NCBI RefSeq assembly: GCF_002831645.1
Contig: NZ_CP025117.1
Location: 1,743,514 to 1,807,513, forward strand
From: Olleya sp. Bg11-27
Lineage (GTDB): Bacteria; Bacteroidota; Bacteroidia; Flavobacteriales; Flavobacteriaceae
Length of the DNA stretch: 64,000 nucleotides
Reading direction: 5' to 3'
Under the pieces are notes generated by a model. That model saw only the letters and a program-made list of their open reading frames with translations. It was not told the DNA's origin and ran no database searches. Shown piece by piece: positions 10,501 through 42,929 of the stretch (the stretch's first letter is position 1; each line of letters begins with the position of its first letter). A program made the position numbers and the translations under genes.

Positions 10501-13500
10501 CTGTTGGAGGGGCTGCAGACAATACGATTTTTGATAGTTTTAATCAATGTGATCAAGATGGAGATGGGGTTGTAGATGCTAATGATGCCTGTAGTGGTTA
10601 TGATGATAGTGTTGATATTGACGGAGATTTAGTTCCAGACAGTTGTGATTTAGATAACGATAATGATGGAATTTTAGATAGTAATGAAGGTAAATGTAAT
10701 ACACTAGAACAATCAGGCTCTTGGACAATTTCAGGTACAACAGCGTCCTACACTTTTACTAACGGTATAATAGCAAACGTAACAACTACAAATAGTGCGG
10801 GGTTTTTAGAAGATAATTTTACTAATCAAGCCTTTTGGTCAGAAGATTTAGCGAATGATGTTTCTTTAGAAAATTCATATGTATGGGGAACTACATTAAC
10901 AGTCAATTATGTTGATAGTTTAGGTAACCCTATTAAAGTTACTAATCCAATTATTCATTTGGATAGATTAGGAGGGACGGAAGCTGGTATTCAAAATGGA
11001 GCGATAGTGACTTTGTTAAATGGCTTAACATGGAATGCTTTATCAGGAACATCTGATTTTAGTACGACGTCCACAACAGCTTCAGATTCAGGAATTGGTA
11101 CGACTGCAGATGCTGGTCATATTCAAGATAGTACTCAAGATGATTCAGATGGTACTGCTGCAGGAACGTTACAAATTAATGGAGAAATTTCTACTTTTAC
11201 TATTGAGTTTGTTCAAGGTGGTTTATTTGGAACTTCTACTGATAGTATTGAGTTAATTCTTGCTGCTTGTCAAAGTTTGGATACTGATACTGATGGAACA
11301 CCGGATTATCTAGATAATGATTCTGATGGAGATGGTTGTTTTGATGCTTTTGAAGGTGGTGATACAATAAACACGACAGATATTGATGTTGATGGTCAGT
11401 TAACAGGTACTGTTGATTCGACTACAGGTGTACCGAATAATGTAGATGTTAACACTGGTCAAACAGTAGGAAGTTCAACGAATGCTGCTTTTAACGCATG
11501 TACAGTGGGAATAGTAAGCGGAACAATCTTAGATGAGAACGGAGATCCAGTATCAGGAATCGTCTTAACATTAGATGATGGCGATGCAGGAACAGTTGAT
11601 CCAACAGCGACTACAGATGCAAGTGGAAACTATAGTTTCACAAATGTACCAGTAGGCGAGTATACAGTAGAGCAAACAACACCAGCAAATACAACAGTAG
11701 TTGATGGCGATACAACAGATGACGGTGATACTGTAGTAAATACAGACACAACAGATAGTAGTATTCCAGTAACAGTAACCGCAGGAGAAGTTGATGCCGA
11801 TAACAACTTTGAGAATAGTCCAGCACCAGGAAGCGTAAGCGGAACAATCTTAGATGAGAACGGAGATCCAGTATCAGGAATCGTCTTAACATTAGATGAT
11901 GGCGATGCAGGAACAGTTGATCCAACAGTGACTACAGATGCAAGTGGAAACTATAGTTTCACAAATGTACCAGTAGGCGAGTATACAGTAGAGCAAACAA
12001 CACCAGCAAATACAACAGTAGTTGATGGCGATACAACAGATGACGGTGATACTGTAGTAAATACAGATACAACAGATAGTAGTATTCCAGTAACAGTAAC
12101 CGCAGGAGAAGTTGATGCCGATAACAACTTTGAGAATAGTCCAGCACCAGGAAGCGTAAGCGGAACAATCTTAGATGAGAACGGAGATCCAGTATCAGGA
12201 ATCGTCTTAACATTAGATGATGGCGATGCAGGAACAGTTGATCCAACAGTGACTACAGATGCAAGTGGAAACTATAGTTTCACAAATGTACCAGTAGGCG
12301 AGTATACAGTAGAGCAAACAACACCAGCAAATACAACAGTAGTTGATGGCGATACAACAGATGACGGTGATACTGTAGTAAATACAGACACAACAGATAG
12401 TAGTATTCCAGTAACAGTAACCGCAGGAGAAGTTGATGCCGATAACAACTTTGAGAATAGTCCAGCACCAGGAAGCGTAAGCGGAACAATCTTAGATGAG
12501 AACGGAGATCCAGTATCAGGAATCGTCTTAACATTAGATGATGGCGATGCAGGAACAGTTGATCCAACAGCGACTACAGACGCAAGTGGAAACTATGTTT
12601 TCACAAATGTACCAGTAGGCGAGTATACAGTAGAGCAAACAACACCAGCAAATACAACAGTAGTTGATGGCGATACAACAGATGACGGTGATACTGTAGT
12701 AAATACAGACACAACAGATAGTAGTATTCCAGTAACAGTAACCGCAGGAGAAGTTGATGCCGATAACAACTTTGAGAATAGTCCAGCACCAGGAAGCGTA
12801 AGCGGAACAATCTTAGATGAGAACGGAGATCCAGTATCAGGAATCGTCTTAACATTAGATGATGGCGATGCAGGAACAGTTGATCCAACAGTGACTACAG
12901 ATGCAAGTGGAAACTATGTTTTCACAAATGTACCAGTAGGCGAGTATACAGTAGAGCAAACAACACCAGCAAATACAACAGTAGTTGATGGCGATACAAC
13001 AGATGACGGTGATACTGTAGTAAATACAGACACAACAGATAGTAGTATTCCAGTAACAGTAACCGCAGGAGAAGTTGATGCAGACAACAACTTTGAGAAT
13101 AGTCCAGCACCAGGAAGCGTAAGCGGAACAATCTTAGATGAGAACGGAGATCCAGTATCAGGAATCGTCTTAACATTAGATGATGGCGATGCAGGAACAG
13201 TTGATCCAACAGCGACTACAGACGCAAGTGGAAACTATGTTTTCACAAATGTACCAGTAGGCGAGTATACAGTAGAGCAAACAACACCAGCAAATACAAC
13301 AGTAGTTGATGGCGATACAACAGATGACGGTGATACTGTAGTAAATACAGACACAACAGATAGTAGTATTCCAGTAACAGTAACCGCAGGAGAAGTTGAT
13401 GCAGACAACAACTTTGAGAATAGTCCAGCACCAGGAAGCGTAAGCGGAACAATCTTAGATGAGAACGGAGATCCAGTATCAGGAATCGTCTTAACATTAG

Positions 13501-16500
13501 ATGATGGCGATGCAGGAACAGTTGATCCAACAGCGACTACAGATGCAAGTGGAAACTATGTTTTCACAAATGTACCAGTAGGCGAGTATACAGTAGAGCA
13601 AACAACACCAGCAAATACAACAGTAGTTGATGGCGATACAACAGATGACGGTGATACTGTAGTAAATACAGACACAACAGATAGTAGTATTCCAGTAACA
13701 GTAACCGCAGGAGAAGTTGATGCAGACAACAACTTTGAGAATAGTCCAGCACCAGGAAGCGTAAGCGGAACAATCTTAGATGAGAACGGAGATCCAGTAT
13801 CAGGAATCGTCTTAACATTAGATGATGGCGATGCAGGAACAGTTGATCCAACAGCGACTACAGATGCAAGTGGAAACTATAGTTTCACAAATGTACCAGT
13901 AGGCGAGTATACAGTAGAGCAAACAACACCAGCAAATACAACAGTAGTTGATGGCGATACAACAGATGACGGTGATACTGTAGTAAATACAGACACAACA
14001 GATAGTAGTATTCCAGTAACAGTAACCGCAGGAGAAGTTGATGCAGACAACAACTTTGAGAATAGTCCAGCACCAGGAAGCGTAAGCGGAACAATCTTAG
14101 ATGAGAACGGAGATCCAGTATCAGGAATCGTCTTAACATTAGATGATGGCGATGCAGGAACAGTTGATCCAACAGCGACTACAGACGCAAGTGGAAACTA
14201 TGTTTTCACAAATGTACCAGTAGGCGAGTATACAGTAGAGCAAACAACACCAGCAAATACAACAGTAGTTGATGGCGATACAACAGATGACGGTGATACT
14301 GTAGTAAATACAGACACAACAGATAGTAGTATTCCAGTAACAGTAACCGCAGGAGAAGTTGATGCCGATAACAACTTTGAGAATAGTCCAGCACCAGGAA
14401 GCGTAAGCGGAACAATCTTAGATGAGAACGGAGATCCAGTATCAGGAATCGTCTTAACATTAGATGATGGCGATGCAGGAACAGTTGATCCAACAGCGAC
14501 TACAGATGCAAGTGGAAACTATAGTTTCACAAATGTACCAGTAGGCGAGTATACAGTAGAGCAAACAACACCAGCAAATACAACAGTAGTTGATGGCGAT
14601 ACAACAGATGACGGTGATACTGTAGTAAATACAGATACAACAGATAGTAGTATTCCAGTAACAGTAACCGCAGGAGAAGTTGATGCAGACAACAACTTTG
14701 AGAATAGTCCAGCACCAGGAAGCGTAAGCGGAACAATCTTAGATGAGAACGGAGATCCAGTATCAGGAATCGTCTTAACATTAGATGATGGCGATGCAGG
14801 AACAGTTGATCCAACAGCGACTACAGATGCAAGTGGAAACTATAGTTTCACAAATGTACCAGTAGGCGAGTATACAGTAGAGCAAACAACACCAGCAAAT
14901 ACAACAGTAGTTGATGGCGATACAACAGATGACGGTGATACTGTAGTAAATACAGATACAACAGATAGTAGTATTCCAGTAACAGTAACCGCAGGAGAAG
15001 TTGATGCCGATAACAACTTTGAGAATAGTCCAGCACCAGGAAGCGTAAGCGGAACAATCTTAGATGAGAACGGAGATCCAGTATCAGGAATCGTCTTAAC
15101 ATTAGATGATGGCGATGCAGGAACAGTTGATCCAACAGCGACTACAGATGCAAGTGGAAACTATAGTTTCACAAATGTACCAGTAGGCGAGTATACAGTA
15201 GAGCAAACAACACCAGCAAATACAACAGTAGTTGATGGCGATACAACAGATGACGGTGATACTGTAGTAAATACAGATACAACAGATAGTAGTATTCCAG
15301 TAACAGTAACCGCAGGAGAAGTTGATGCCGATAACAACTTTGAGAATAGTCCAGCACCAGGAAGCGTAAGCGGAACAATCTTAGATGAGAACGGAGATCC
15401 AGTATCAGGAATCGTCTTAACATTAGATGATGGCGATGCAGGAACAGTTGATCCAACAGTGACTACAGATGCAAGTGGAAACTATAGTTTCACAAATGTA
15501 CCAGTAGGCGAGTATACAGTAGAGCAAACAACACCAGCAAATACAACAGTAGTTGATGGCGATACAACAGATGACGGTGATACTGTAGTAAATACAGATA
15601 CAACAGATAGTAGTATTCCAGTAACAGTAACCGCAGGAGAAGTTGATGCCGATAACAACTTTGAGAATAGTCCAGCACCAGGAAGCGTAAGCGGAACAAT
15701 CTTAGATGAGAACGGAGATCCAGTATCAGGAATCGTCTTAACATTAGATGATGGCGATGCAGGAACAGTTGATCCAACAGTGACTACAGATGCAAGTGGA
15801 AACTATAGTTTCACAAATGTACCAGTAGGCGAGTATACAGTAGAGCAAACAACACCAGCAAATACAACAGTAGTTGATGGCGATACAACAGATGACGGTG
15901 ATACTGTAGTAAATACAGATACAACAGATAGTAGTATTCCAGTAACAGTAACCGCAGGAGAAGTTGATGCCGATAACAACTTTGAGAATAGTCCAGCACC
16001 AGGAAGCGTAAGCGGAACAATCTTAGATGAGAACGGAGATCCAGTATCAGGAATCGTCTTAACATTAGATGATGGCGATGCAGGAACAGTTGATCCAACA
16101 GCGACTACAGACGCAAGTGGAAACTATGTTTTCACAAATGTACCAGTAGGCGAGTATACAGTAGAGCAAACAACACCAGCAAATACAACAGTAGTTGATG
16201 GCGATACAACAGATGACGGTGATACTGTAGTAAATACAGACACAACAGATAGTAGTATTCCAGTAACAGTAACCGCAGGAGAAGTTGATGCCGATAACAA
16301 CTTTGAGAATAGTCCAGCACCAGGAAGCGTAAGCGGAACAATCTTAGATGAGAACGGAGATCCAGTATCAGGAATCGTCTTAACATTAGATGATGGCGAT
16401 GCAGGAACAGTTGATCCAACAGCGACTACAGACGCAAGTGGAAACTATGTTTTCACAAATGTACCAGTAGGCGAGTATACAGTAGAGCAAACAACACCAG

Positions 16501-19500
16501 CAAATACAACAGTAGTTGATGGCGATACAACAGATGACGGTGATACTGTAGTAAATACAGATACAACAGATAGTAGTATTCCAGTAACAGTAACCGCAGG
16601 AGAAGTTGATGCAGACAACAACTTTGAGAATAGTCCAGCACCAGGAAGCGTAAGCGGAACAATCTTAGATGAGAACGGAGATCCAGTATCAGGAATCGTC
16701 TTAACATTAGATGATGGCGATGCAGGAACAGTTGATCCAACAGCGACTACAGATGCAAGTGGAAACTATGTTTTCACAAATGTACCAGTAGGCGAGTATA
16801 CAGTAGAGCAAACAACACCAGCAAATACAACAGTAGTTGATGGCGATACAACAGATGACGGTGATACTGTAGTAAATACAGATACAACAGATAGTAGTAT
16901 TCCAGTAACAGTAACCGCAGGAGAAGTTGATGCAGACAACAACTTTGAGAATAGTCCAGCACCAGGAAGCGTAAGCGGAACAATCTTAGATGAGAACGGA
17001 GATCCAGTATCAGGAATCGTCTTAACATTAGATGATGGCGATGCAGGAACAGTTGATCCAACAGCGACTACAGATGCAAGTGGAAACTATAGTTTCACAA
17101 ATGTACCAGTAGGCGAGTATACAGTAGAGCAAACAACACCAGCAAATACAACAGTAGTTGATGGCGATACAACAGATGACGGTGATACTGTAGTAAATAC
17201 AGACACAACAGATAGTAGTATTCCAGTAACAGTAACCGCAGGAGAAGTTGATGCCGATAACAACTTTGAGAATAGTCCAGCACCAGGAAGCGTAAGCGGA
17301 ACAATCTTAGATGAGAACGGAGATCCAGTATCAGGAATCGTCTTAACATTAGATGATGGCGATGCAGGAACAGTTGATCCAACAGCGACTACAGATGCAA
17401 GTGGAAACTATGTTTTCACAAATGTACCAGTAGGCGAGTATACAGTAGAGCAAACAACACCAGCAAATACAACAGTAGTTGATGGCGATACAACAGATGA
17501 CGGTGATACTGTAGTAAATACAGATACAACAGATAGTAGTATTCCAGTAACAGTAACCGCAGGAGAAGTTGATGCAGACAACAACTTTGAGAATAGTCCA
17601 GCACCAGGAAGCGTAAGCGGAACAATCTTAGATGAGAACGGAGATCCAGTATCAGGAATCGTCTTAACATTAGATGATGGCGATGCAGGAACAGTTGATC
17701 CAACAGCGACTACAGATGCAAGTGGAAACTATAGTTTCACAAATGTACCAGTAGGCGAGTATACAGTAGAGCAAACAACACCAGCAAATACAACAGTAGT
17801 TGATGGCGATACAACAGATGACGGTGATACTGTAGTAAATACAGATACAACAGATAGTAGTATTCCAGTAACAGTAACCGCAGGAGAAGTTGATGCCGAT
17901 AACAACTTTGAGAATAGTCCAGCACCAGGAAGCGTAAGCGGAACAATCTTAGATGAGAACGGAGATCCAGTATCAGGAATCGTCTTAACATTAGATGATG
18001 GCGATGCAGGAACAGTTGATCCAACAGTGACTACAGATGCAAGTGGAAACTATAGTTTCACAAATGTACCAGTAGGCGAGTATACAGTAGAGCAAACAAC
18101 ACCAGCAAATACAACAGTAGTTGATGGCGATACAACAGATGACGGTGATACTGTAGTAAATACAGATACAACAGATAGTAGTATTCCAGTAACAGTAACC
18201 GCAGGAGAAGTTGATGCCGATAACAACTTTGAGAATAGTCCAGCACCAGGAAGCGTAAGCGGAACAATCTTAGATGAGAACGGAGATCCAGTATCAGGAA
18301 TCGTCTTAACATTAGATGATGGCGATGCAGGAACAGTTGATCCAACAGTGACTACAGATGCAAGTGGAAACTATAGTTTCACAAATGTACCAGTAGGCGA
18401 GTATACAGTAGAGCAAACAACACCAGCAAATACAACAGTAGTTGATGGCGATACAACAGATGACGGTGATACTGTAGTAAATACAGATACAACAGATAGT
18501 AGTATTCCAGTAACAGTAACCGCAGGAGAAGTTGATGCCGATAACAACTTTGAGAATAGTCCAGCACCAGGAAGCGTAAGCGGAACAATCTTAGATGAGA
18601 ACGGAGATCCAGTATCAGGAATCGTCTTAACATTAGATGATGGCGATGCAGGAACAGTTGATCCAACAGTGACTACAGATGCAAGTGGAAACTATAGTTT
18701 CACAAATGTACCAGTAGGCGAGTATACAGTAGAGCAAACAACACCAGCAAATACAACAGTAGTTGATGGCGATACAACAGATGACGGTGATACTGTAGTA
18801 AATACAGATACAACAGATAGTAGTATTCCAGTAACAGTAACCGCAGGAGAAGTTGATGCCGATAACAACTTTGAGAATAGTCCAGCACCAGGAAGCGTAA
18901 GCGGAACAATCTTAGATGAGAACGGAGATCCAGTATCAGGAATCGTCTTAACATTAGATGATGGCGATGCAGGAACAGTTGATCCAACAGCGACTACAGA
19001 TGCAAGTGGAAACTATAGTTTCACAAATGTACCAGTAGGCGAGTATACAGTAGAGCAAACAACACCAGCAAATACAACAGTAGTTGATGGCGATACAACA
19101 GATGACGGTGATACTGTAGTAAATACAGATACAACAGATAGTAGTATTCCAGTAACAGTAACCGCAGGAGAAGTTGATGCCGATAACAACTTTGAGAATA
19201 GTCCAGCACCAGGAAGCGTAAGCGGAACAATCTTAGATGAGAACGGAGATCCAGTATCAGGAATCGTCTTAACATTAGATGATGGCGATGCAGGAACAGT
19301 TGATCCAACAGTGACTACAGATGCAAGTGGAAACTATAGTTTCACAAATGTACCAGTAGGCGAGTATACAGTAGAGCAAACAACACCAGCAAATACAACA
19401 GTAGTTGATGGCGATACAACAGATGACGGTGATACTGTAGTAAATACAGATACAACAGATAGTAGTATTCCAGTAACAGTAACCGCAGGAGAAGTTGATG

Positions 19501-22500
19501 CCGATAACAACTTTGAGAATAGTCCAGCACCAGGAAGCGTAAGCGGAACAATCTTAGATGAGAACGGAGATCCAGTATCAGGAATCGTCTTAACATTAGA
19601 TGATGGCGATGCAGGAACAGTTGATCCAACAGCGACTACAGATGCAAGTGGAAACTATAGTTTCACAAATGTACCAGTAGGCGAGTATACAGTAGAGCAA
19701 ACAACACCAGCAAATACAACAGTAGTTGATGGCGATACAACAGATGACGGTGATACTGTAGTAAATACAGACACAACAGATAGTAGTATTCCAGTAACAG
19801 TAACCGCAGGAGAAGTTGATGCCGATAACAACTTTGAGAATAGTCCAGTAGTTGGAACAGTAACAGGAACAGTAGATATTACAGATACTTCAGTTCCAGG
19901 CGATACTTTAGATGTTGTTGTTACAGATAACGATTTAAATATAGATTCAGCAGTAATTGAAACTATAGATGTGGTTGTTGTAAATGATGTTACAGGAGAA
20001 AGTGAAATTGTAACGTTAACTGAAACAGGAGTAGATACAGGAGTATTTACAGGAACAGTTGATACAGTATTCGGAACAACAGGAGGAACGGATAATGATG
20101 GAACGATTAATACACAAACAGGAGATACAGTAACTGTAACTTATGACGATGTATTAGATGCAGACGGAAATGATCCAGTAGCCGTAACCGATACTGATAT
20201 TGTAGGAGCAGGAGCAACTGGAACAGTAGATATTACAGATACTTCAGTACCAGGCGATACTTTAGATGTTGTTGTTACAGATAACGATTTAAATACAGAT
20301 TCAGCAGTAATTGAAACTATAGATGTGGTTGTTGTAAATGATGTTACAGGAGAAAGTGAAATTGTAACGTTAACTGAAACAGGAGTAGATACAGGAGTAT
20401 TTACAGGAACAGTTGATACAGTATTCGGAACAACAGGAGGAACGGATAATGATGGAACGATTAATACACAAACAGGAGATACAGTAACTGTAACTTATGA
20501 CGATGTATTAGATGCAGACGGAAATGATCCAGTAGCCGTAACCGATACTGATATTGTAGGAGCAGGAGCAACTGGAACAGTAGATATTACAGATACTTCA
20601 GTACCAGGCGATACTTTAGATGTTGTTGTTACAGATAACGATTTAAATACAGATTCAGCAGTAATTGAAACTATAGATGTGGTTGTTGTAAATGATGTTA
20701 CAGGAGAAAGTGAAATTGTAACGTTAACTGAAACAGGAGTAGATACAGGAGTATTTACAGGAACAGTTGATACAGTATTCGGAACAACAGGAGGAACGGA
20801 TAATGATGGAACGATTAATACACAAACAGGAGATACAGTAACTGTAACTTATGACGATGTATTAGATGCAGACGGAAATGATCCAGTAGCCGTAACCGAT
20901 ACTGATATTGTAGGAGATACAGATACGGATGGTGATGGAGTGATTGATTCTGTAGAAATACTTAACGGTACAGATCCAAATAATGCATGTGATTATAACG
21001 TAGCAGATATTACAGAAGTAATCACAGCAACAACAGATTGTGATAATGATGGATTAACTGATGCAGAAGAAATCAACGGACCAGATGGAGATCCAACTAC
21101 AGATGATGGTACGGATCCTACAGAACCAGATACAGACGGTGATGGTGTGTTAGACGGAACAGAAATACTTAACGGTACAGATCCAAATAATGCATGTGAT
21201 TATAACGTAGCAGATATTACAGAAGTAATCACAGCAACAACAGATTGTGATAATGATGGATTAACTGATGCAGAAGAAATCAACGGACCAGATGGAGATC
21301 CAACTACAGATGATGGTACGGATCCAACAGAATCAGATACAGATGGAGATGGTGTGTTAGATGGGACAGAAGTTGCAAATGGTACAGATCCAAATAATGC
21401 ATGTGATTATAACGCAGTAGATATTACAGAAGTAATCACAGCAACAACAGATTGCGATAATGACGGTCTAACGGATGCAGAAGAAATTAATGGACCAGAT
21501 GGAGATCCAACTACAGATGATGGTACGGATCCAACAGAATCAGATACAGATGGAGATGGTGTGTTAGATGGGACAGAAGTTGCAAATGGTACAGATCCAA
21601 ATAATGCATGTGATTATAACGCAGTAGATATTACAGAAGTAATCACAGCAACAACAGATTGCGATAATGACGGTCTAACGGATGCAGAAGAAATTAATGG
21701 ACCAGATGGAGATCCAACTACAGATGATGGTACGGATCCAACAGAATCAGATACAGATGGAGATGGTGTGTTAGATGGGACAGAAGTTGCAAATGGGACA
21801 GATCCAAATAATGCATGTGATTATAACGTAGCAGATGTTACAGAAGTAATCACAGCAACAACAGATTGCGATAATGACGGTTTAACGGATGCAGAGGAAA
21901 TTAATGGACCAGATGGAGATCCAACAACAAATGATGGTACGGATCCAACAAATCCAGATTCAGATGGAGATGGCGTATCTGATGGTACGGAAGTATTAGT
22001 TGATAATACAGATCCAAATAACGTTTGTGATTTTGTAGTAGGAAGTATAACATTACCTCAAGATGCGTTATTCTTAACGCTTGATTGTGATGGTGACGGT
22101 GTAACAAACGGTCAAGAGATTATAGATGGAACTGATCCTATCAATGCGTGTGATTATACAATAGGAAGTCAAGATGAAACTATGGTTTCACTTACTTGGG
22201 AAGCATTAGATTGTGATGGTGATGGTGTAATTAATGGTACAGAATTAGATGATAATACTAATCCATTAAATCCATGTGAATTTATCTTATCTAGTACTAC
22301 TGTACCACAATCAGTGGAATGGTTAGAAGGAGATTGTGATTCTGATAATGTGCCTAACGGAGAAGAATTTCCTTTAGGAGATACTGATGATGATGGAACT
22401 CCTAACTGGTTGGATGCAGATGATGACAATGATGGTGTTGATACGATCAATGAAGATTATGCAGATACAGATGTTTCAGATGGGGATGTAGATCCAACAG

Positions 22501-23009
22501 GTGATAACGATCCAACGAATGATGATACGGATGGAGATTCTATTCCAGATTATTTAGATACGGATGATGATAATGACGGAGTTTTAACGTCTGATGAGTA
22601 TCCTGACCCTAATGATAATGGTATCGGGTTTGGTGATGATGCTGTTGATAGTGATGGTGATGGTTTACCAGATTATTTAGATGTAAATAACGCTTCATCT
22701 TCTGAAGATAACCTTGAAATATTTAATGCAGTTACACCTAACGGAGATGGTGATAATGATGTGTTTGTAATTAGAAACATAGAGTTATATCCTGAAAATA
22801 CTGTTAAGATTTATAATAGATGGGGAGTTGTAGTTTATGAGACTTCAGGTTACGGATCAAATGGTAACTATTTTGATGGTCGATCTAACGGAAGAGTCAA
22901 TGTTCAGGAAGATGAATTATTACCTGTAGGGACTTACTTCTATATTATAGAGTATACCGTGGAAGGTGATACTAAATCAAGAGCAGGATATTTATATATT
23001 CAACGTTAA
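7596..23009 (+). CDS. Giant T9SS-secreted repeat protein (type B sorting domain), SprB-like adhesin candidate
   Basis: This encodes 5137 residues in one uninterrupted frame. An N-terminal signal peptide ends near TYGQ; the Met at 7632 gives a more compact signal peptide and is an alternative start. Residues about 60-700 hold beta-rich modules, two of them VCBS/cadherin-like. Thrombospondin type 3-like DxDxDG runs appear near 687-710 and again to about 1290. Residues about 1307-4088 are 26 copies of a 107-residue SdrD_B/Cna_B-like domain (SGTILDENGDPVSGIVLTL...). Then come three 118-residue repeats, five 69-residue Ca2+-binding repeats, more DxDGDG runs and a C-terminal gliding-motility type B sorting domain (TPNGDGDNDVF, YNRWGVVVYE). 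The product should be exported by T9SS and displayed on the cell surface, probably as a Ca2+-stiffened adhesin. The following PorP/SprF and OmpA genes support this. The adhesive role is inference. Confidence 0.93.
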   Translation: MKNSTPFLFYFKMLKPFFSATVKSLFLLCFLNLGMTYGQNKSTVLNKDPNVKIAPIKYSDEEIHEDSKVDSFEGFFGGLSKLQSDATARTVTSVDLNGTGAGVDNSVAAIVGFIYRTVSIDNTVTTTSGTLNSATITFSSDPSGTPSGAPDPNDRVWLYDSSGASLGSVTINAAFGPYVSPGYGTNSFTIQTSGNGVYNITETNGAAILVANFEDFLYNFAYAHTGGVVTDGTRYMIVSVTDANNTLSATSEINLVNPPAAVDDVNTILANAIVPVSGDLLSNDTDATTGDVLTITEIYGFTTTVDATYATTYGFLTAQSDGSYDYIADNNNIAVRGLGNGASITDVISYTVTDLNGNVDFGYLTITINGVDELPVATDNLNTVAVNTAITASGNVIFDDDGFGVDTGDRPLAQLIWETEYADGVPINGTSRLINGVNVSFVTSDPGAVGTVTNQTVNYGTNGGHSGYLLFNSNPTVNPAPDNTLIINFDNPVANLFFTISDIDYSQGTSWQDLMRVTSSLDGANVSYVSRANGSVVTVGSDTFYGTGSVPPNDAHGNVSFYFDTPVDQIILDYNYGPQVTDADPSNQIAGLTDLNWQDSAVPRVGEVYGNIADVGVSIPTTYGFIVLNGDGTYTYTLDTSNPDVINLLVGDTLTDVIPYTLIDSVDNTGNKDTANLTMTINGSATDSDMDGVVDANDLDDDNDGILDVNELECSAGFVDLNQTFTNNSTGTNGGTGTAILSNLYPFSGADVVTAVYEVQGNANWSSGVRSLTGTAGISGAYINTQPENTDFPSGDVGVYTYTFSEPVYNVEFKFGGLDNQDRADFLAANSGVNTSVFLSDINLGANGTFTGQNVVSSAGGSNAPNNAIQVSIPGPVTEVTITVGKQDGNAGNVTMQFYELEYCIGLDTDADGIPDYLDLDSDNDGCFDAIEGGDNILLANVNTDGTLDGTVDSVTGVPNNVDVNNGQTVGGAADNTIFDSFNQCDQDGDGVVDANDACSGYDDSVDIDGDLVPDSCDLDNDNDGILDSNEGKCNTLEQSGSWTISGTTASYTFTNGIIANVTTTNSAGFLEDNFTNQAFWSEDLANDVSLENSYVWGTTLTVNYVDSLGNPIKVTNPIIHLDRLGGTEAGIQNGAIVTLLNGLTWNALSGTSDFSTTSTTASDSGIGTTADAGHIQDSTQDDSDGTAAGTLQINGEISTFTIEFVQGGLFGTSTDSIELILAACQSLDTDTDGTPDYLDNDSDGDGCFDAFEGGDTINTTDIDVDGQLTGTVDSTTGVPNNVDVNTGQTVGSSTNAAFNACTVGIVSGTILDENGDPVSGIVLTLDDGDAGTVDPTATTDASGNYSFTNVPVGEYTVEQTTPANTTVVDGDTTDDGDTVVNTDTTDSSIPVTVTAGEVDADNNFENSPAPGSVSGTILDENGDPVSGIVLTLDDGDAGTVDPTVTTDASGNYSFTNVPVGEYTVEQTTPANTTVVDGDTTDDGDTVVNTDTTDSSIPVTVTAGEVDADNNFENSPAPGSVSGTILDENGDPVSGIVLTLDDGDAGTVDPTVTTDASGNYSFTNVPVGEYTVEQTTPANTTVVDGDTTDDGDTVVNTDTTDSSIPVTVTAGEVDADNNFENSPAPGSVSGTILDENGDPVSGIVLTLDDGDAGTVDPTATTDASGNYVFTNVPVGEYTVEQTTPANTTVVDGDTTDDGDTVVNTDTTDSSIPVTVTAGEVDADNNFENSPAPGSVSGTILDENGDPVSGIVLTLDDGDAGTVDPTVTTDASGNYVFTNVPVGEYTVEQTTPANTTVVDGDTTDDGDTVVNTDTTDSSIPVTVTAGEVDADNNFENSPAPGSVSGTILDENGDPVSGIVLTLDDGDAGTVDPTATTDASGNYVFTNVPVGEYTVEQTTPANTTVVDGDTTDDGDTVVNTDTTDSSIPVTVTAGEVDADNNFENSPAPGSVSGTILDENGDPVSGIVLTLDDGDAGTVDPTATTDASGNYVFTNVPVGEYTVEQTTPANTTVVDGDTTDDGDTVVNTDTTDSSIPVTVTAGEVDADNNFENSPAPGSVSGTILDENGDPVSGIVLTLDDGDAGTVDPTATTDASGNYSFTNVPVGEYTVEQTTPANTTVVDGDTTDDGDTVVNTDTTDSSIPVTVTAGEVDADNNFENSPAPGSVSGTILDENGDPVSGIVLTLDDGDAGTVDPTATTDASGNYVFTNVPVGEYTVEQTTPANTTVVDGDTTDDGDTVVNTDTTDSSIPVTVTAGEVDADNNFENSPAPGSVSGTILDENGDPVSGIVLTLDDGDAGTVDPTATTDASGNYSFTNVPVGEYTVEQTTPANTTVVDGDTTDDGDTVVNTDTTDSSIPVTVTAGEVDADNNFENSPAPGSVSGTILDENGDPVSGIVLTLDDGDAGTVDPTATTDASGNYSFTNVPVGEYTVEQTTPANTTVVDGDTTDDGDTVVNTDTTDSSIPVTVTAGEVDADNNFENSPAPGSVSGTILDENGDPVSGIVLTLDDGDAGTVDPTATTDASGNYSFTNVPVGEYTVEQTTPANTTVVDGDTTDDGDTVVNTDTTDSSIPVTVTAGEVDADNNFENSPAPGSVSGTILDENGDPVSGIVLTLDDGDAGTVDPTVTTDASGNYSFTNVPVGEYTVEQTTPANTTVVDGDTTDDGDTVVNTDTTDSSIPVTVTAGEVDADNNFENSPAPGSVSGTILDENGDPVSGIVLTLDDGDAGTVDPTVTTDASGNYSFTNVPVGEYTVEQTTPANTTVVDGDTTDDGDTVVNTDTTDSSIPVTVTAGEVDADNNFENSPAPGSVSGTILDENGDPVSGIVLTLDDGDAGTVDPTATTDASGNYVFTNVPVGEYTVEQTTPANTTVVDGDTTDDGDTVVNTDTTDSSIPVTVTAGEVDADNNFENSPAPGSVSGTILDENGDPVSGIVLTLDDGDAGTVDPTATTDASGNYVFTNVPVGEYTVEQTTPANTTVVDGDTTDDGDTVVNTDTTDSSIPVTVTAGEVDADNNFENSPAPGSVSGTILDENGDPVSGIVLTLDDGDAGTVDPTATTDASGNYVFTNVPVGEYTVEQTTPANTTVVDGDTTDDGDTVVNTDTTDSSIPVTVTAGEVDADNNFENSPAPGSVSGTILDENGDPVSGIVLTLDDGDAGTVDPTATTDASGNYSFTNVPVGEYTVEQTTPANTTVVDGDTTDDGDTVVNTDTTDSSIPVTVTAGEVDADNNFENSPAPGSVSGTILDENGDPVSGIVLTLDDGDAGTVDPTATTDASGNYVFTNVPVGEYTVEQTTPANTTVVDGDTTDDGDTVVNTDTTDSSIPVTVTAGEVDADNNFENSPAPGSVSGTILDENGDPVSGIVLTLDDGDAGTVDPTATTDASGNYSFTNVPVGEYTVEQTTPANTTVVDGDTTDDGDTVVNTDTTDSSIPVTVTAGEVDADNNFENSPAPGSVSGTILDENGDPVSGIVLTLDDGDAGTVDPTVTTDASGNYSFTNVPVGEYTVEQTTPANTTVVDGDTTDDGDTVVNTDTTDSSIPVTVTAGEVDADNNFENSPAPGSVSGTILDENGDPVSGIVLTLDDGDAGTVDPTVTTDASGNYSFTNVPVGEYTVEQTTPANTTVVDGDTTDDGDTVVNTDTTDSSIPVTVTAGEVDADNNFENSPAPGSVSGTILDENGDPVSGIVLTLDDGDAGTVDPTVTTDASGNYSFTNVPVGEYTVEQTTPANTTVVDGDTTDDGDTVVNTDTTDSSIPVTVTAGEVDADNNFENSPAPGSVSGTILDENGDPVSGIVLTLDDGDAGTVDPTATTDASGNYSFTNVPVGEYTVEQTTPANTTVVDGDTTDDGDTVVNTDTTDSSIPVTVTAGEVDADNNFENSPAPGSVSGTILDENGDPVSGIVLTLDDGDAGTVDPTVTTDASGNYSFTNVPVGEYTVEQTTPANTTVVDGDTTDDGDTVVNTDTTDSSIPVTVTAGEVDADNNFENSPAPGSVSGTILDENGDPVSGIVLTLDDGDAGTVDPTATTDASGNYSFTNVPVGEYTVEQTTPANTTVVDGDTTDDGDTVVNTDTTDSSIPVTVTAGEVDADNNFENSPVVGTVTGTVDITDTSVPGDTLDVVVTDNDLNIDSAVIETIDVVVVNDVTGESEIVTLTETGVDTGVFTGTVDTVFGTTGGTDNDGTINTQTGDTVTVTYDDVLDADGNDPVAVTDTDIVGAGATGTVDITDTSVPGDTLDVVVTDNDLNTDSAVIETIDVVVVNDVTGESEIVTLTETGVDTGVFTGTVDTVFGTTGGTDNDGTINTQTGDTVTVTYDDVLDADGNDPVAVTDTDIVGAGATGTVDITDTSVPGDTLDVVVTDNDLNTDSAVIETIDVVVVNDVTGESEIVTLTETGVDTGVFTGTVDTVFGTTGGTDNDGTINTQTGDTVTVTYDDVLDADGNDPVAVTDTDIVGDTDTDGDGVIDSVEILNGTDPNNACDYNVADITEVITATTDCDNDGLTDAEEINGPDGDPTTDDGTDPTEPDTDGDGVLDGTEILNGTDPNNACDYNVADITEVITATTDCDNDGLTDAEEINGPDGDPTTDDGTDPTESDTDGDGVLDGTEVANGTDPNNACDYNAVDITEVITATTDCDNDGLTDAEEINGPDGDPTTDDGTDPTESDTDGDGVLDGTEVANGTDPNNACDYNAVDITEVITATTDCDNDGLTDAEEINGPDGDPTTDDGTDPTESDTDGDGVLDGTEVANGTDPNNACDYNVADVTEVITATTDCDNDGLTDAEEINGPDGDPTTNDGTDPTNPDSDGDGVSDGTEVLVDNTDPNNVCDFVVGSITLPQDALFLTLDCDGDGVTNGQEIIDGTDPINACDYTIGSQDETMVSLTWEALDCDGDGVINGTELDDNTNPLNPCEFILSSTTVPQSVEWLEGDCDSDNVPNGEEFPLGDTDDDGTPNWLDADDDNDGVDTINEDYADTDVSDGDVDPTGDNDPTNDDTDGDSIPDYLDTDDDNDGVLTSDEYPDPNDNGIGFGDDAVDSDGDGLPDYLDVNNASSSEDNLEIFNAVTPNGDGDNDVFVIRNIELYPENTVKIYNRWGVVVYETSGYGSNGNYFDGRSNGRVNVQEDELLPVGTYFYIIEYTVEGDTKSRAGYLYIQR
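11513..19858 (+). repeat. 26 tandem 321-bp repeats within the giant gene (107-residue SdrD_B/Cna_B-like domain)
   Basis: The unit is exactly 321 bp and 26 units fill 8346 bp without a partial copy. By eye, units differ at only five sites: Ala/Val (gcg/gtg), a gat/gac Asp codon, Ser/Val (agt/gtt), a second gat/gac Asp codon, and gccgat/gcagac. The five sites assort in many combinations. Each encoded domain has 16 Asp and 5 Glu but no Lys, Arg or His, a net charge near -21. The fold is inferred from the SGTILDENGDPVSGI start and the DASGNYSFTNVPVGEYTV strand pattern, typical of Cna_B/SdrD_B domains. Confidence 0.97.
19871..20932 (+). repeat. Three tandem 354-bp repeats within the giant gene (118 residues each)
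   Basis: The unit begins at 19871, 20225 and 20579, exactly 354 bp apart. The encoded unit starts TVDITDTSVPGDTLDVVVTD and contains VTLTETGVDTGVFTGTVDT, a beta-sandwich-like pattern also rich in Asp and Thr and free of Lys and Arg. The only difference I noticed is Ile versus Thr in DLNID/DLNTD in the first copy and a silent change in its PGD region. I do not recognise a named family with certainty. Confidence 0.93.
20925..21959 (+). repeat. Five tandem 207-bp repeats within the giant gene (thrombospondin type 3-like, 69 residues each)
   Basis: A shared point in the unit recurs at 20964, 21171, 21378, 21585 and 21792, a constant 207 bp. The encoded unit carries TDGDGVLDGTE, NGTDPNNACDYN and TDCDNDGLTDAEEINGPDGD, i.e. 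paired DxDxDG calcium-binding loops and two Cys. The copies are more diverged than the 321-bp units. Array ends are approximate. Confidence 0.9.
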
Positions 23010-29724: not shown

Positions 29725-29739
29725 TGGCACAGCATTTGT
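29725..29739 (+). promoter_or_regulatory. Sigma-54-like promoter of RNA copy 1
   Basis: TGGCACAGCATTTGT matches the -24/-12 layout TGGCAC-N5-TTGC except for T in place of C at -12. The GG to -12 G distance is 12 bases, as required. The predicted start (12 bases after the -12 base) falls at 29751, beside the first paired base of the RNA. Confidence 0.7.
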
Positions 29740-29751
29740 AATATATGCTGT

Positions 29752-29864
29752 GTAATTAAATATGAAGACTTTCTAATACTAGGTGTGGTTACCTAAACAG
29801 AGACGAGTAATAATTACATTGGTTGGTTAGTATGAAAAAGCACTCTTTTTAGAGTGCTTTTTCT
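29752..29864 (+). ncRNA. Candidate structured small RNA, copy 1 of 4
   Basis: I predict an RNA of about 113 nt. The outer helix is GTAATTA at the 5' end with TAATTAC (29812-29818). The middle helix is TTTCT with AGAGA (one G-U). The inner hairpin is TAGGT-GTGGTT-ACCTA. After these come an unpaired TTGGTTGGTTAG segment and a terminator hairpin, GAAAAAGCACTCT/AGAGTGCTTTTTC at 29834-29863. The terminator closes the transcript without overlapping any coding sequence. There is no ribosome-binding or ORF evidence. Whether it matches an Rfam family cannot be judged from the sequence alone. Confidence 0.75.
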
Positions 29865-29917
29865 ATTTAATCATTTTAATAAACATTTAACAAGGCTTAG
29901 TGTTAGTAACTAGGATT

Positions 29918-29932
29918 TGGCACGACAATTGT
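29918..29932 (+). promoter_or_regulatory. Sigma-54-like promoter of RNA copy 2
   Basis: TGGCACGACAATTGT fits the sigma-54 consensus TGGCACG-N4-TTGC at every position but the last (T for C at -12). The predicted start is 29944, one base before the first paired base of copy 2. Confidence 0.72.
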
Positions 29933-29944
29933 TATATTAGTATT

Positions 29945-30057
29945 GTAATTAAGTATGAAGACTTTCTAACACTAGGTGTGGTTACCTAAACAGAAACGAG
30001 TATTAATTACATTGGTTGGTTAGTATGAAAAAGCACCCTTTATAGGGTGCTTTTTCT
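29945..30057 (+). ncRNA. Candidate structured small RNA, copy 2 of 4
   Basis: This copy has the best pairing of the four. The outer helix is GTAATTAA (29945-29952) with TTAATTAC (30003-30010), 8 bp. The middle helix is TTTCT (29963-29967) with AGAAA (29992-29996), fully Watson-Crick. The inner hairpin is TAGGT (29973-29977) with ACCTA (29984-29988) around GTGGTT. The terminator stem is GAAAAAGCACCCT/AGGGTGCTTTTTC (30027-30056), where the C-G pairs replace T-A pairs of copies 1 and 3. These paired changes support selection on RNA structure. Confidence 0.77.
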
Positions 30058-30111
30058 ATGTAACAGGTTTTAGTAAATTATTAACAATTGTTGATGAAAG
30101 TAAAATGATAT

Positions 30112-30126
30112 TGGCACGACAATTGT
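30112..30126 (+). promoter_or_regulatory. Sigma-54-like promoter of RNA copy 3
   Basis: TGGCACGACAATTGT is identical to the copy 2 element although the sequence upstream of it has diverged. The predicted start is 30138, one base before the first paired base of copy 3. Confidence 0.72.
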
Positions 30127-30138
30127 TATATACATATA

Positions 30139-30250
30139 GTAATTAAATATGAAGACTTTCTAATACTAGGTGTGGTTACCTAAACAGAGACGAGTAATAA
30201 TTATATTGGTTGGTTAGTATGAAAAAGCACTCTTTTAGAGTGCTTTTTCT
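30139..30250 (+). ncRNA. Candidate structured small RNA, copy 3 of 4
   Basis: The sequence is close to copy 1. The outer helix is GTAATTA with TAATTAT (a G-U pair where copies 1 and 2 have G-C). The middle helix TTTCT/AGAGA and the inner hairpin TAGGT-GTGGTT-ACCTA are kept. The tail TTGGTTGGTTAGTATG leads into a terminator stem GAAAAAGCACTCT/AGAGTGCTTTTTC with a loop one base shorter than in copy 1 (30221-30249). Confidence 0.75.
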
Positions 30251-30303
30251 ATTTAATAGTTTTAATATATGATTAACAGAACTGATTGTTATAAAAATGA
30301 AAC

Positions 30304-30318
30304 TGGCACGACAATTGT
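30304..30318 (+). promoter_or_regulatory. Sigma-54-like promoter of RNA copy 4
   Basis: TGGCACGACAATTGT again, identical to copies 2 and 3, within an otherwise diverged upstream sequence. The predicted start is about 30330, two bases before the first paired base of copy 4. Confidence 0.72.
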
Positions 30319-30331
30319 AAGTATTTAGTTA

Positions 30332-30447
30332 GTAGTTATTTACATGGACTTTTGCTTTAGGTGTGGTTACCTAAACAAAACGAGTAGTAACTATGATATT
30401 TTTGGTTGGTTAGTATGAAAAAGCATCCCTTTTAGGATGCTTTTTCT
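30332..30447 (+). ncRNA. Candidate structured small RNA, copy 4 of 4 (most diverged)
   Basis: The primary sequence differs most here but the helices survive. The outer helix is GTAGTTA with TAACTAT. The middle helix is TTTTG with CAAAA, where the other copies have TTTCT/AGAAA. The inner hairpin is TAGGT-GTGGTT-ACCTA, unchanged. The terminator stem is GAAAAAGCATCC/GGATGCTTTTTC (30417-30446). Both strands of the middle helix and of the terminator changed together. The loop GTGGTT, CGAGTA and the TTGGTTGGTTAGTATG tail are unchanged, so those are the likely functional bases. Its terminator may also serve the convergent hydrolase gene. Confidence 0.75.
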
Positions 30448-30472
30448 ATTTATCACAAGTAATGTAACACTC

Positions 30473-31399
30473 TTATTTTTTTATAAAAGAAATGATGTTT
30501 TCTAATAAATCTTTGGCTAGAGGTCTTTGGGACTCGTTATAAGACTTCGAGTTTTCCAAATCGCCACCTTCAATTGTGACTAGGACATGATTCATGTCCT
30601 TTATAATTTTTAATTCAGCTTGAGCTGATGCTTCTTTTAATAGTTTAGCTTCGGCTTCGCTAACTTGTAAGTCTTTAGTCCCATTAATAATGAGAATAGG
30701 CATTTCCAGAGTGCCTAAAATAGCAGTTGGATTATATTGCATCCAATTTATTATAAATCGCTGTGTCTCAATGTTAAAAATAGAAGATAACGCTACGGGA
30801 TAATCAGTGGTTGTTTTTCCAGTTTTTAAAATTTTAAAAATACGTTTGGTGTCAGGAGAGAATTGAGGAGCCGTTTTTTCAACTTGTTCTAAAATAACAT
30901 TGTCAATACTTAGAGCAGATCCAGCAAGCGATATAAAACCCGTAATTTTGTCTTTAGCTGCTAGCATACCTATTAAGCTGCCTTGATCATGACCGATAAC
31001 GTATATGTTTTTGTATTTGTTTTGTTTTTTAAAATAATCTATGACAGTACTGGCATCAGACACAAAGTCATCAAATATAATGGCATTGTTAACATTATTC
31101 TCTCGTATTTGCTTCACGATACGCTTATCAAATCTGAAGGTTGTAATATTACTATTAGTTAAGCCTACAGCTAATTTTTTGATATTATTGGTTTTCTGAA
31201 AATTTTGGTTACCATCCTTATCTGTAGGGCCTGATCCTCCAATGATTATAGCTAAATTTGAGACGTTATCCACATTAGGGATTAACAATGTCCCATTAAT
31301 ATACCTGTTTATTACAAGGTCTTGACTAGAATAGTTTAGGTCCTGGCCTGTGACATTAGCAGATAGAAAAGCAAGTAAGAGTAAGGGGTATAATTTCAT
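30473..31399 (-). CDS. Secreted alpha/beta hydrolase with GHDQG nucleophile motif
   Basis: I start this gene at 31399, giving MKLYPLLLLAFLSANVTGQ, a clear signal peptide. A longer frame from 31438 would put 13 unsupported residues before it. The 308-residue protein is an alpha/beta hydrolase: an oxyanion-type IIGGSGPTDKDG segment, the nucleophile elbow VIGHDQGSLIGM, an acid in IINGTKDLQV and a His in MNHVLV. The elbow normally reads G-x-S-x-G; here the codon is GAT (Asp). Asp nucleophiles occur in haloalkane dehalogenases and epoxide hydrolases of the same fold, but the rest looks like a serine-peptidase/esterase-type relative. The substrate is unknown. A TAAATTTG box at 31456-31463 may be its -7 element. 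Confidence 0.85.
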   Translation of the reverse strand: MKLYPLLLLAFLSANVTGQDLNYSSQDLVINRYINGTLLIPNVDNVSNLAIIIGGSGPTDKDGNQNFQKTNNIKKLAVGLTNSNITTFRFDKRIVKQIRENNVNNAIIFDDFVSDASTVIDYFKKQNKYKNIYVIGHDQGSLIGMLAAKDKITGFISLAGSALSIDNVILEQVEKTAPQFSPDTKRIFKILKTGKTTTDYPVALSSIFNIETQRFIINWMQYNPTAILGTLEMPILIINGTKDLQVSEAEAKLLKEASAQAELKIIKDMNHVLVTIEGGDLENSKSYNESQRPLAKDLLENIISFIKK

Positions 31400-31788
31400 G
31401 ATTAGATGTTTTGACCATTGAGACAAATAAAATGCCAAAACGGAATTTAATTACTCAAATTTACATTTAATTTGTGATTTTTAGAACCGAATGGTATTCT
31501 ATTTATAAATGTTATTAATCGTTTTTATATCACCTTTATCGGTTAATGTTAAAATTTATAGTATTTCATCGATTTATTTTGTTTTTTAACCTAAATCATT
31601 GGAATAAGTTTTATGTTTGCAGCGTACTAGAAATTACATACTTTTTAGTTCAATGGATTAATTAATTAATATTTGCATTATTTAAGTTTTTAAAACCTAA
31701 TGTAAAAATGACAAATAGCAAAAAGCCAAGGTTGAGGGACCTTGGCTTTTCTGTTTCAAAAAAGAAAATATAAATTTTCGATATAATA
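31400..31788. other. Intergenic region between hydrolase and alkB-like genes, with a possible short transcript
   Basis: No supported gene. On the plus strand TATGTTTG at 31612-31619 fits the -7 box and the terminator hairpin at 31721-31750 lies about 100 bases further on, which would give a transcript of roughly 125 nt. I find no TTTG box at the right spacing. An ATG at 31708 opens a 21-codon frame running through the hairpin, which I do not regard as coding. Confidence 0.35.
31721..31751. terminator. Intrinsic terminator downstream of the alkB-like gene
   Basis: AAAAGCCAAGGT and ACCTTGGCTTTT pair perfectly over 12 bp around TGAGGG. It lies about 40 bases past the alkB-like stop and has A/T tracts on both sides, so it can act on either strand. 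Confidence 0.85.
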
Positions 31789-40881: not shown

Positions 40882-41766
40882 ATGCAGAAACATTTTAAAT
40901 TAGTCCTACTTGTAATACTACTCTTTAGTGGGGTTTATAGTGCTAACGCGCAGCTAACAGATTTAGCGCGTTTAGAATATTCTTACATACCAAAAAACAA
41001 TTCGGAAGACAGTTTTGATCGTTTTCGTTTTGCATTAAATTATCCAATCAAAATTAAAGAAGATAGTTATTTGCTTATTGGGGGGGATTATAGTCGAATT
41101 ACACTAAATTTAGAAGATCGTTACCCTTTTCCAACGTCTAATTTAAGACGTTTACATATTTTAGATTTTAATTTAGGCTATACTTTTAAAGTGTCTGAAA
41201 ATTGGCGATTAGGAGCTAAAATAACGCCAAGATTAGCGTCTACATTAAGACATAAAATTAGCGGAGACGATTTGTTTTTAAATGGAGGGGTTTATGCTAT
41301 ACATGACAAAACGAAGGATAAGAGTATAAAAAAACCTTATCGTTTAATTTTAGGACTAACCTATAATAGTACGACGGGTATCCCACTGCCATTACCGTTT
41401 GTGAGTTATTATCGTCGTGTAAATGAAAAATGGTCCTATAATTTAGGTGTGCCTAAAACAAACTTGAAGTATTTTATAAACGAACAAAATATTATTCAAA
41501 CCTTTGTTGGTATTGATGGGTATTTTGCTAACACACAAGAACGTTTTGTTATTGATGGAAAAGAGGCAGATAGCGTGTCGTTATCTATAATATTGGCAGG
41601 TATTGGGTATGAGTATTGTTTTACAGACCATTTAGTTTGGTATGCTTACACAGGCTATAGTTTAAGTATGAATAATAGATTGAGAGACGAGAATCGAGAA
41701 GACGTATTTAAGTTGGATAATGTCAATACGTTTTATTTAAGAACAGGAATTAAATTTAAAATATAA
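40882..41766 (+). CDS. Outer-membrane beta-barrel protein, DUF6268-like
   Basis: The 294-residue protein has a signal peptide (to NAQ) and many alternating strands with aromatic girdles, ending in TFYLRTGIKFKI, a typical outer-membrane barrel C-terminus. It resembles proteins annotated DUF6268; I am fairly but not fully sure of that family. The function is unknown. The stop codon overlaps the ATG of the next gene (TAATG), so the sigma-54 regulator is translationally coupled to this outer-membrane protein. A link between envelope state and the regulator is a tempting inference only. Confidence 0.75.
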   Translation: MQKHFKLVLLVILLFSGVYSANAQLTDLARLEYSYIPKNNSEDSFDRFRFALNYPIKIKEDSYLLIGGDYSRITLNLEDRYPFPTSNLRRLHILDFNLGYTFKVSENWRLGAKITPRLASTLRHKISGDDLFLNGGVYAIHDKTKDKSIKKPYRLILGLTYNSTTGIPLPLPFVSYYRRVNEKWSYNLGVPKTNLKYFINEQNIIQTFVGIDGYFANTQERFVIDGKEADSVSLSIILAGIGYEYCFTDHLVWYAYTGYSLSMNNRLRDENREDVFKLDNVNTFYLRTGIKFKI

Positions 41767-42929
41767 TGCCAAAAATATTAGTAATAGAAGACGAAGCAGC
41801 GATTAGAAGAGTATTAATAAAAATTCTATCGGAAGAAAACGATACGTATCAAGTCGAAGAAGCAGAAGACGGACTAGTTGGTTTAAATAAAGTAAGAAAA
41901 GAAGATTACGATTTAATTTTGTGCGATATTAAAATGCCAAAAATGGATGGTGTTGAGGTTTTGGAAGCAGTCAAAAAAATAAAACCAGAAATACCAATGG
42001 TGATGATCTCTGGTCATGGGGATTTAGATACAGCTGTAAACACGATGCGTTTAGGGGCTTTTGATTATATCTCAAAGCCGCCAGATTTAAACCGTTTATT
42101 AAATACAGTTCGTAATGCTTTAGATCGAAAGGAATTAGTTGTAGAAAATAAAATTCTTAAAAAGAAGGTTAGTAAAAAATACGAAATGATTGGAGATAGC
42201 GATGCTATTGCTCAAATTAAGGGTATTATAGATAAAGTGGCACCTACCGACGCTAGAGTTTTAATTACGGGACCAAATGGGACAGGAAAGGAATTAGTGG
42301 CGCATTGGTTGCACGAAAAAAGTACAAGATCAAAAGGACCGATGATAGAAGTTAATTGTGCAGCTATACCATCAGAGTTAATCGAAAGTGAATTGTTTGG
42401 GCACGTCAAAGGGGCGTTTACAAGTGCAGCTAAAGATAGAGCAGGTAAGTTTGAAGCAGCCAATGGGGGAACCATTTTCCTAGACGAAATTGGGGATATG
42501 AGTCTATCAGCACAAGCAAAAGTATTACGAGCGTTACAAGAAAGTCGTATACAACGTGTGGGTAGTGATAAGGATATAAAAGTAGACGTGCGTATTGTTG
42601 CAGCAACTAATAAAAACTTAAAAAAGGAAATTTCGGAAGGAAATTTCCGAGAGGATTTATACCACAGATTAGCCGTTATATTGGTTAAAGTTCCAGCATT
42701 AAATGATAGACGTGACGATATTCCGTTACTAATAAATCATTTTTCTGCAAAAATAGCAGAAGAGCAAGGGACAATACATAAAGTTTTTTCGGCTAAAGCC
42801 ATAAAATTATTGCAAGATTATGACTGGACTGGTAATATTAGAGAGCTTCGTAATGTTGTAGAAAGATTAATCATTTTAGGAGCAGCGGAAGTTAGCGAGC
42901 AAGACGTTAAATTATTTGCGAGTAAATAA
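41766..42929 (+). CDS. Sigma-54-dependent response regulator lacking a DNA-binding domain
   Basis: The 387-residue product has a receiver domain (residues 1-120; phospho-acceptor Asp in LILCDIKMPKMDG, conserved Lys in YISKPP). An AAA+ sigma-54 activation domain follows: Walker A GPNGTGKE, Walker B GGTIFLDEIGDM, arginine-finger region FREDLYHRL. Two oddities stand out. The sigma-54 contact loop reads GAFTSA instead of GAFTGA. The protein stops right after the AAA+ lid (VKLFASK), so the Fis-type helix-turn-helix normally at the C-terminus is absent. Such activators, e.g. Helicobacter FlgR, work without binding an enhancer. No histidine kinase is adjacent in this operon. Last gene, closed by a terminator. 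Confidence 0.94.
   Translation: MPKILVIEDEAAIRRVLIKILSEENDTYQVEEAEDGLVGLNKVRKEDYDLILCDIKMPKMDGVEVLEAVKKIKPEIPMVMISGHGDLDTAVNTMRLGAFDYISKPPDLNRLLNTVRNALDRKELVVENKILKKKVSKKYEMIGDSDAIAQIKGIIDKVAPTDARVLITGPNGTGKELVAHWLHEKSTRSKGPMIEVNCAAIPSELIESELFGHVKGAFTSAAKDRAGKFEAANGGTIFLDEIGDMSLSAQAKVLRALQESRIQRVGSDKDIKVDVRIVAATNKNLKKEISEGNFREDLYHRLAVILVKVPALNDRRDDIPLLINHFSAKIAEEQGTIHKVFSAKAIKLLQDYDWTGNIRELRNVVERLIILGAAEVSEQDVKLFASK

Follow-up and report, generated by a model that had tools for sequence, protein, structure and literature searches.

The window analysed here, a 64,000-nucleotide stretch of Olleya sp. Bg11-27 DNA, contains on its plus strand, at 29725–30451, four consecutive units, in each of which a TGGCAC-N5-TTGT motif is followed by a structured 5' domain and then by a terminator. 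The array is best described as four tandem sibling small RNA genes, each with its own predicted sigma-54 promoter and its own terminator. In copy 1 the promoter (TGGCACAGCATTTGT) lies at 29725–29739 and the RNA is predicted to extend from its start to the terminator end at 29751–29866, with the tail GGTTGGTTAGT at 29821–29831 and an intrinsic terminator hairpin at 29834–29863. Copy 2 has its promoter (TGGCACGACAATTGT) at 29918–29932, the RNA at 29944–30059, the tail at 30014–30024 and the hairpin at 30027–30056; the corresponding positions in copy 3, whose promoter is likewise TGGCACGACAATTGT, are 30112–30126, 30138–30252, 30208–30218 and 30221–30249. Copy 4, with a diverged 5' domain and a longer link ahead of the tail, has its promoter (again TGGCACGACAATTGT) at 30304–30318, the RNA at 30330–30449, the tail at 30404–30414 and the hairpin at 30417–30446.

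An earlier, sequence-only reading had placed a four-copy array here, and coordinates, promoters, folding and repeat comparison confirm it. Its proposed end at 30447 is right to within a few bases (the last hairpin ends at 30446 and the T-rich end lies near 30449), the siblings do have terminators of their own (a hairpin was found in each of the four copies), and the promoters of copies 2–4 are identical as claimed. The proposed spacing of 193–194 bp fits the first two promoter steps (193 and 194 bp) but not the last, which measures 192 bp, or 190–196 bp by other repeat blocks. With the nucleotide that follows TTG set as −12, the same predicted starts are obtained (29751, 29944, 30138 and 30330), each within 1–2 nt of the point where the outer helix begins on its 5' side. 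The claim that promoters were kept as spacers diverged also holds, since likeness between copies is 45–63% in the upstream spacers and 80–100% in the promoters. Tail and terminator together are 90–98% alike among the four copies, and the 5' domain is 91–97% alike among copies 1–3 and 64–67% alike between these and copy 4. The next gene downstream is an abhydrolase on the minus strand (30473–31438). A sigma-54-like site at 31424–31437 (minus strand), 38 nt before an ATG of this ORF, was considered and set aside, a like site being present in only 3 of 67 relatives. Elsewhere in the window, an ORF at 7596–23009 (plus strand) encodes a predicted 5137-aa protein that contains numerous near-identical repeats (SGTILDENGDPVSGIVLTLDDGDAGTVDP...); the genes after it appear by eye to be PorP/SprF-like and OmpA-like.

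The exact combination of promoter and tail was found in 78 of 299 Flavobacteriaceae genomes (the Olleya genome included), with no match for a reversed control. Across 196 genomes of the order it occurred in 4 of 30 Flavobacteriaceae and in 0 of 166 genomes from other families, many of which are small or incomplete. BLASTN with copy 1 matched 31 of 100 family genomes, again including its own, many matches covering the terminator alone. Scanning GTDB contigs for promoter and tail returned at least 118 stretches; eight listed matches outside Bacteroidota (L036, L040, L066, L078, L079, L091, L131 and L134), and L097, look like chance. The eight were dropped from the neighbour counts given below, and all nine from the counts of unpaired tails, ORFs and upstream elements; loci with numbers below L036, which come from the own genome or the BLASTN set, were dropped from all of these, and units without a detected hairpin from the unpaired-tail statistics. 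A model, R1, matched 74 of 100 genomes at E 0.01, a tally that we do not take as a family count, as many weak matches look terminator-only; its search also produced additional, shorter variants with promoter and tail. Within the Olleya genome, full units found by BLASTN are confined to the array, a fifth match (E 2e-4) being a look-alike terminator, and R1 gave four more weak matches, the best at E 3e-5.

The genomic setting of the units recurs. Among the matches listed, 111 unit groups were compared over up to three ORFs on each side, with names taken from the window's own genes: the abhydrolase cluster was present at 68 loci, an M15 dipeptidase at 65, an AlkB-like oxygenase at 56 and a DUF819 transporter-like protein at 54. 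Two to four exact promoter–tail matches were found in nine of the 78 pattern-bearing genomes, and named arrays among the matches listed include those of Lacinutrix algicola (four copies), Kordia algicida (four) and Olleya sediminilitoris (three). The nearest named relatives of the window RNAs are from Olleya. In a tree, window copies 1–3 group together in a separate clade (95/86), and two O. sediminilitoris copies do the same (96/89). Amplification or homogenisation is therefore ongoing within lineages; judged by these comparisons, tandem copy number is labile.

Each RNA is predicted to comprise a 5' domain, made up of a long outer helix plus an inner hairpin bearing GUGUGGUUAC, followed by the mostly unpaired tail GGUUGGUUAGU and the terminator. 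Folding z-scores for copies 1–4 were −4.6, −3.1, −4.4 and −3.9, and the terminators of the window copies differ by compensatory changes. In an alignment of 23 units of the window's subfamily (A3, two rows ending early), 97.2% of cells in the three elements (outer helix, inner hairpin, terminator) were paired, and changes on both sides were seen in 13 of 30 pairs. Slid controls of the same alignment reached 42–53% paired; none of 500 shuffles did as well on four of five measures, and 68 of 500 did so on the fifth, the number of further pair types. The 5' domain was tested within this one subfamily because RNAalifold on an alignment of 50 diverse units (A2, with L092, L094, L097, L102, L104, L152 and L153 left out) recovered the terminator helix alone. 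Other lineages have different 5' domains, which are short in L272, L274, L287 and L288 (62–73 nt from promoter to tail). No conserved reading frame was found in the units: in 126 of them, among the matches listed, the longest closed ORF had a median of 16 and a maximum of 38 codons.

The motif TGGCAY-N5-TTG occurs seven times in the window against 0.92 expected, a number reached by 0 of 100 shuffles, and four of the seven sites are the array promoters. To judge conservation we used the BLASTN-found loci L007–L035, which were fetched without use of the promoter, leaving out those from the own genome. They hold 20 tail-bearing places (at most one mismatch), and 15 of these have TGGCAY-N5-TTG 78–106 nt upstream, where the chance of such a site in shuffled sequence is 0.12% per place. 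One of the remaining five has a promoter at a shorter distance and four have none, among them L021, an mRNA 3' end. The Olleya genome (4.31 Mb, one contig) carries rpoN, and a search with the sigma-54 activator domain PF00158 listed 11 matches, four of them strong (E 4e-68 or better). These matches, the presence of rpoN and the conservation in 15 of 20 places support the sigma-54 promoters put forward in the sequence-only reading. As rpoN is near-universal (297 of 299 Flavobacteriaceae genomes), its presence alone predicts nothing.

One of the four strong PF00158 matches lies in the window itself, an NtrC-like response regulator at 41766–42929 (plus strand) with receiver, sigma-54 interaction and AAA+/AAA lid domains, in which the domain search gave no match to a helix-turn-helix or other DNA-binding domain. 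About 11 kb from the array, it is a possible candidate for the activator. A search upstream of the units gave no conserved activator site. A paired TGATATYA element enriched there was rejected in this role, as most units that bear it adjoin the start of a divergent gene (51 of 56 element-bearing units, from 118 looked at among the matches listed), and it is more likely to belong to the divergent gene than to the small RNA. The pair TGATATYA ... TGATATCA, 11 bp apart near the divergent gene start (e.g. L042, L050, L069 and L072), has an operator-like appearance.

The steadiest part of the RNA is the near-invariant 11-letter tail, GGUUGGUUAGU, directly ahead of the terminator. This invariance is partly imposed, the pattern-derived set having been searched with the tail itself, and a less biased view comes from 26 loci found by model search (L263–L288; four others fetched were known units). 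Of the 26, 18 combine the 10-letter tail with a promoter that has no more than one mismatch, and two more (L273 and L280) have GGTTAGTTAG with a promoter. L284 has the tail and no promoter, L277 and L281 are mRNA 3' ends (the former with one mismatch in the tail, the latter encoding a fasciclin domain), and L279, L282 and L286 represent another RNA lacking a sigma-54 site. This different conserved RNA reads GGGGTGGTTCCCTTAC ... GGTTGGTTATTTAGG before a terminator. The variants GGTTAGTTAGT and GGTTGGTTATT appeared in the looser model search. Folding gives the tail a mean unpaired value of 0.70, compared with 0.38 over the RNA as a whole, and the tail value exceeds 0.6 in 87 of 124 units among the matches listed. 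A single tail per RNA was found in the four window copies and in the units inspected. Because the tail persists while the 5' domain changes, we regard it as the probable business end of the RNA, and as the likeliest part to be of importance; the sequence-only reading had overlooked both the tail and its presence at mRNA 3' ends. In the L152 unit a stretch of the 5' part (ACTAACCAA) was seen by eye to be complementary to the unit's own tail.

Eight whole genomes contain 52 sites of the tail word against 30 of the reversed word. These comprise 18 small RNA units (one without a strict promoter), five clpB 3' ends, three exported-protein gene ends, four other pre-terminator sites, 11 sites inside reading frames and 11 left unassigned. 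The word is rare, at four to nine sites per genome with reading-frame sites included; terminators are far more numerous. In all 14 folded mRNA or unassigned ends a strong hairpin directly follows the tail. The clpB mRNA ends in the tail in five of the eight genomes, clpB having been examined in those five and called by the family model TIGR03346 in one (L253) and by sequence likeness in the other four. No strict sigma-54 site was found within 1.1–1.4 kb upstream of any of the five; in Flavobacterium psychrophilum, clpB is listed under a sigma-54-type motif (PMC9723704).

A second class of tail-bearing mRNA encodes an exported IEFSVFPDGQFDF protein. All ten homologues among the loci fetched have TGGCAY-N5-TTG 49–95 nt ahead of the start codon, and eight have the tail 7–19 nt past the stop codon. 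Four of these eight were found via the tail itself; among the six homologues found independently of it (L092, L094, L152, L153, L111 and L289), four bear it. The genes of L111 and of the own genome (L289) have the promoter and no tail. At L092, L094, L152, L153 and L111, a predicted sigma-54 small RNA of a second type, with the same tail, adjoins uvrA (UvrA called by model in L092), and the exported-protein gene with its sigma-54 promoter follows; this gene ends in the tail at four of the five loci. The own genome holds two tandem exported-protein genes (L289 and L290, at G000:C1:3113367-3115339) without a Pfam match, each with a sigma-54-like promoter, and one of the two proteins is 50% identical to another genome's tail-bearing gene product. 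The second tandem copy, like the first, has the sigma-54-like site and no tail.

Searches for targets gave little. Perfect anti-tail sites (CTAACCAAC) are not enriched in the own genome, with 41 against 44 for the reversed word, and four of the 41 lie opposite the array RNAs themselves. The other 37, all beyond the array, were mapped relative to reading frames, and among three contexts read there was no convincing 5'-leader target. Identical anti-tail sites at L171, L172 and L175 were considered as rRNA and rejected: they lie in a repeated stretch with no Rfam match. Tested at the starts of 36 window ORFs, the tail reached −14.1 kcal/mol at best, and 17% of shuffled tails did as well.

Because neighbours recur, base changes compensate and promoters are conserved, the units are very likely to be small RNAs transcribed with sigma-54. 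We lean towards trans-acting RNAs in which the tail serves as a common base-pairing seed, a role that is less secure because perfect targets are not enriched and pairing at ORF starts is no better than in shuffles. Under such a scheme an enhancer-binding protein would sense a signal, sigma-54 RNA polymerase would transcribe each RNA from its own promoter, and the RNAs would accumulate and act in trans. We infer the signal by analogy: it may be protein-folding or envelope stress, as the sigma-54 regulon of F. psychrophilum includes chaperones, Lon, gliding and exported proteins (PMC9723704). The tail would form imperfect duplexes with C/A-rich, ACUAACCAACC-like stretches in target mRNAs, stabilised or presented by the 5' domain, and the tail and terminator on clpB and exported-protein mRNAs, or on their 3' fragments, would bring these into the same RNA regulon.

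The rival that stays alive, rather unlikely in our estimation, is a protein-binding decoy, in which the GGUU/AGUU-repeat tail would be the site of an RNA-binding protein that the RNAs titrate, CsrB-like, from mRNAs such as clpB. It survives because complementary sites are not enriched and the same tail stands beside terminators in unrelated RNAs and mRNAs; tandem copies would also raise the dose. However, known decoy RNAs carry many repeated sites, not the single tail seen here, and a search of the own genome for a candidate protein with RRM_1 (the RbpB kind) found none, the control Bacteroides ihuae being positive. It is improbable that the tail merely serves 3'-end stability or termination, with the RNA acting through its 5' domain (the GUGUGGUUAC hairpin) or being a by-product. 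The position directly ahead of a hairpin in mRNAs and the selected structure of the 5' domain would fit such a role, but that domain is very different from one lineage to another and sometimes short while the tail stays, and the tail word is rare. Copying of an untranscribed repeat or of a mobile element could yield tandem near-identical copies, yet the same neighbours recur in relatives, full units in the own genome are limited, by BLASTN, to the array (further R1 matches having E 3e-5 or worse) and base changes are compensatory, leaving this explanation with very little probability. A cis-acting leader or attenuator, suggested by a structured RNA ending in a terminator, can practically be dismissed, since the downstream abhydrolase is on the opposite strand and each copy terminates itself.

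Returning to small RNAs that act through their tail, we tentatively propose a 3'-end code of the Flavobacteriaceae, in which GGUUGGUUAGU, set directly ahead of the terminator, would bring mRNAs for stress and secreted proteins, by way of their 3' UTRs, into one post-transcriptional regulon with dedicated sigma-54 small RNAs. Its members might include the mRNAs for clpB, the exported IEFSVFPDGQFDF protein and the fasciclin-domain protein, read by common targets or by an RNA-binding factor. If so, a shared 3'-end code operates in an organism in which no RbpB-like RRM protein is detectable. Post-transcriptional control in the Flavobacteriaceae is little explored, and a conserved small RNA family with a defined tail offers a direct handle on what reads GGUUGGUUAGU, be it RNAs or proteins, and on the reason for its presence in clpB. 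Labile tandem copy number, moreover, provides a natural experiment in regulatory-RNA dose.

Rfam, whose library we take to contain the Flavo-1 and Qrr models, gave no family over the gathering threshold at the array, only a tRNA elsewhere in the window, and only tRNAs over threshold in 14 relatives (111 kb). The 46 weak matches up to E 10 were at chance level and included no Qrr. The likeness to Qrr raised in the sequence-only reading is confined to logic. Qrr1–5 of Vibrio are sibling small RNAs with sigma-54 promoters, their own terminators and a very constant pairing stretch; they are activated by LuxO and use Hfq. The array RNAs resemble them in having several siblings, a sigma-54 promoter directly upstream (as judged by sequence), their own terminators and a constant stretch, and differ in phylum, in forming one tandem array and in a tail that adjoins the terminator and is common to mRNAs.

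The sequence-only reading knew of no such system in flavobacteria, and a search of open-licence PMC papers found no description of this RNA family. That view is qualified by Rfp36 of F. psychrophilum, a putative regulatory RNA listed with a sigma-54-type motif at its mapped start (PMC9723704, Table 2); compared by description, it shares a sigma-54-type promoter with the array RNAs. Rfp18 of the same species is absent from the sigma-54 part of the selected table (PMC9723704). The strict promoter–tail pattern was absent from all 17 genomes of the most-sampled genus, g128, which is perhaps Flavobacterium.

The FopS/GibS RNAs of Bacteroides thetaiotaomicron are described as a paralogous family that shares an unpaired seed, with a terminator after it, and includes a member derived from a 3' UTR; they have sigma-ABfr or PM2 promoters and a seed at the 5' end, are bound by RbpB (RRM) and are placed within Bacteroidaceae (PMC11697453). 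The array RNAs are likewise paralogous, with a predicted unpaired candidate seed shared among them and followed by a terminator, and with mRNA 3' ends that share it; unlike FopS/GibS as there described, they have predicted sigma-54 promoters and a tail at the 3' side. A further parallel, again by description, is GlnZ, an enterobacterial small RNA reportedly produced from the 3' UTR of the glutamine synthetase mRNA under sigma-54 control, which resembles the present case in the possible use of an mRNA 3' UTR as a small RNA source. Taken together, these comparisons make it the best reading, by analogy, that the array RNAs work like Qrr or FopS while being members of neither. Sibling sigma-54 small RNAs and shared-seed families are thus already known in kind; what is new here is the tandem array, its occurrence in flavobacteria and a tail held in common with mRNA ends.
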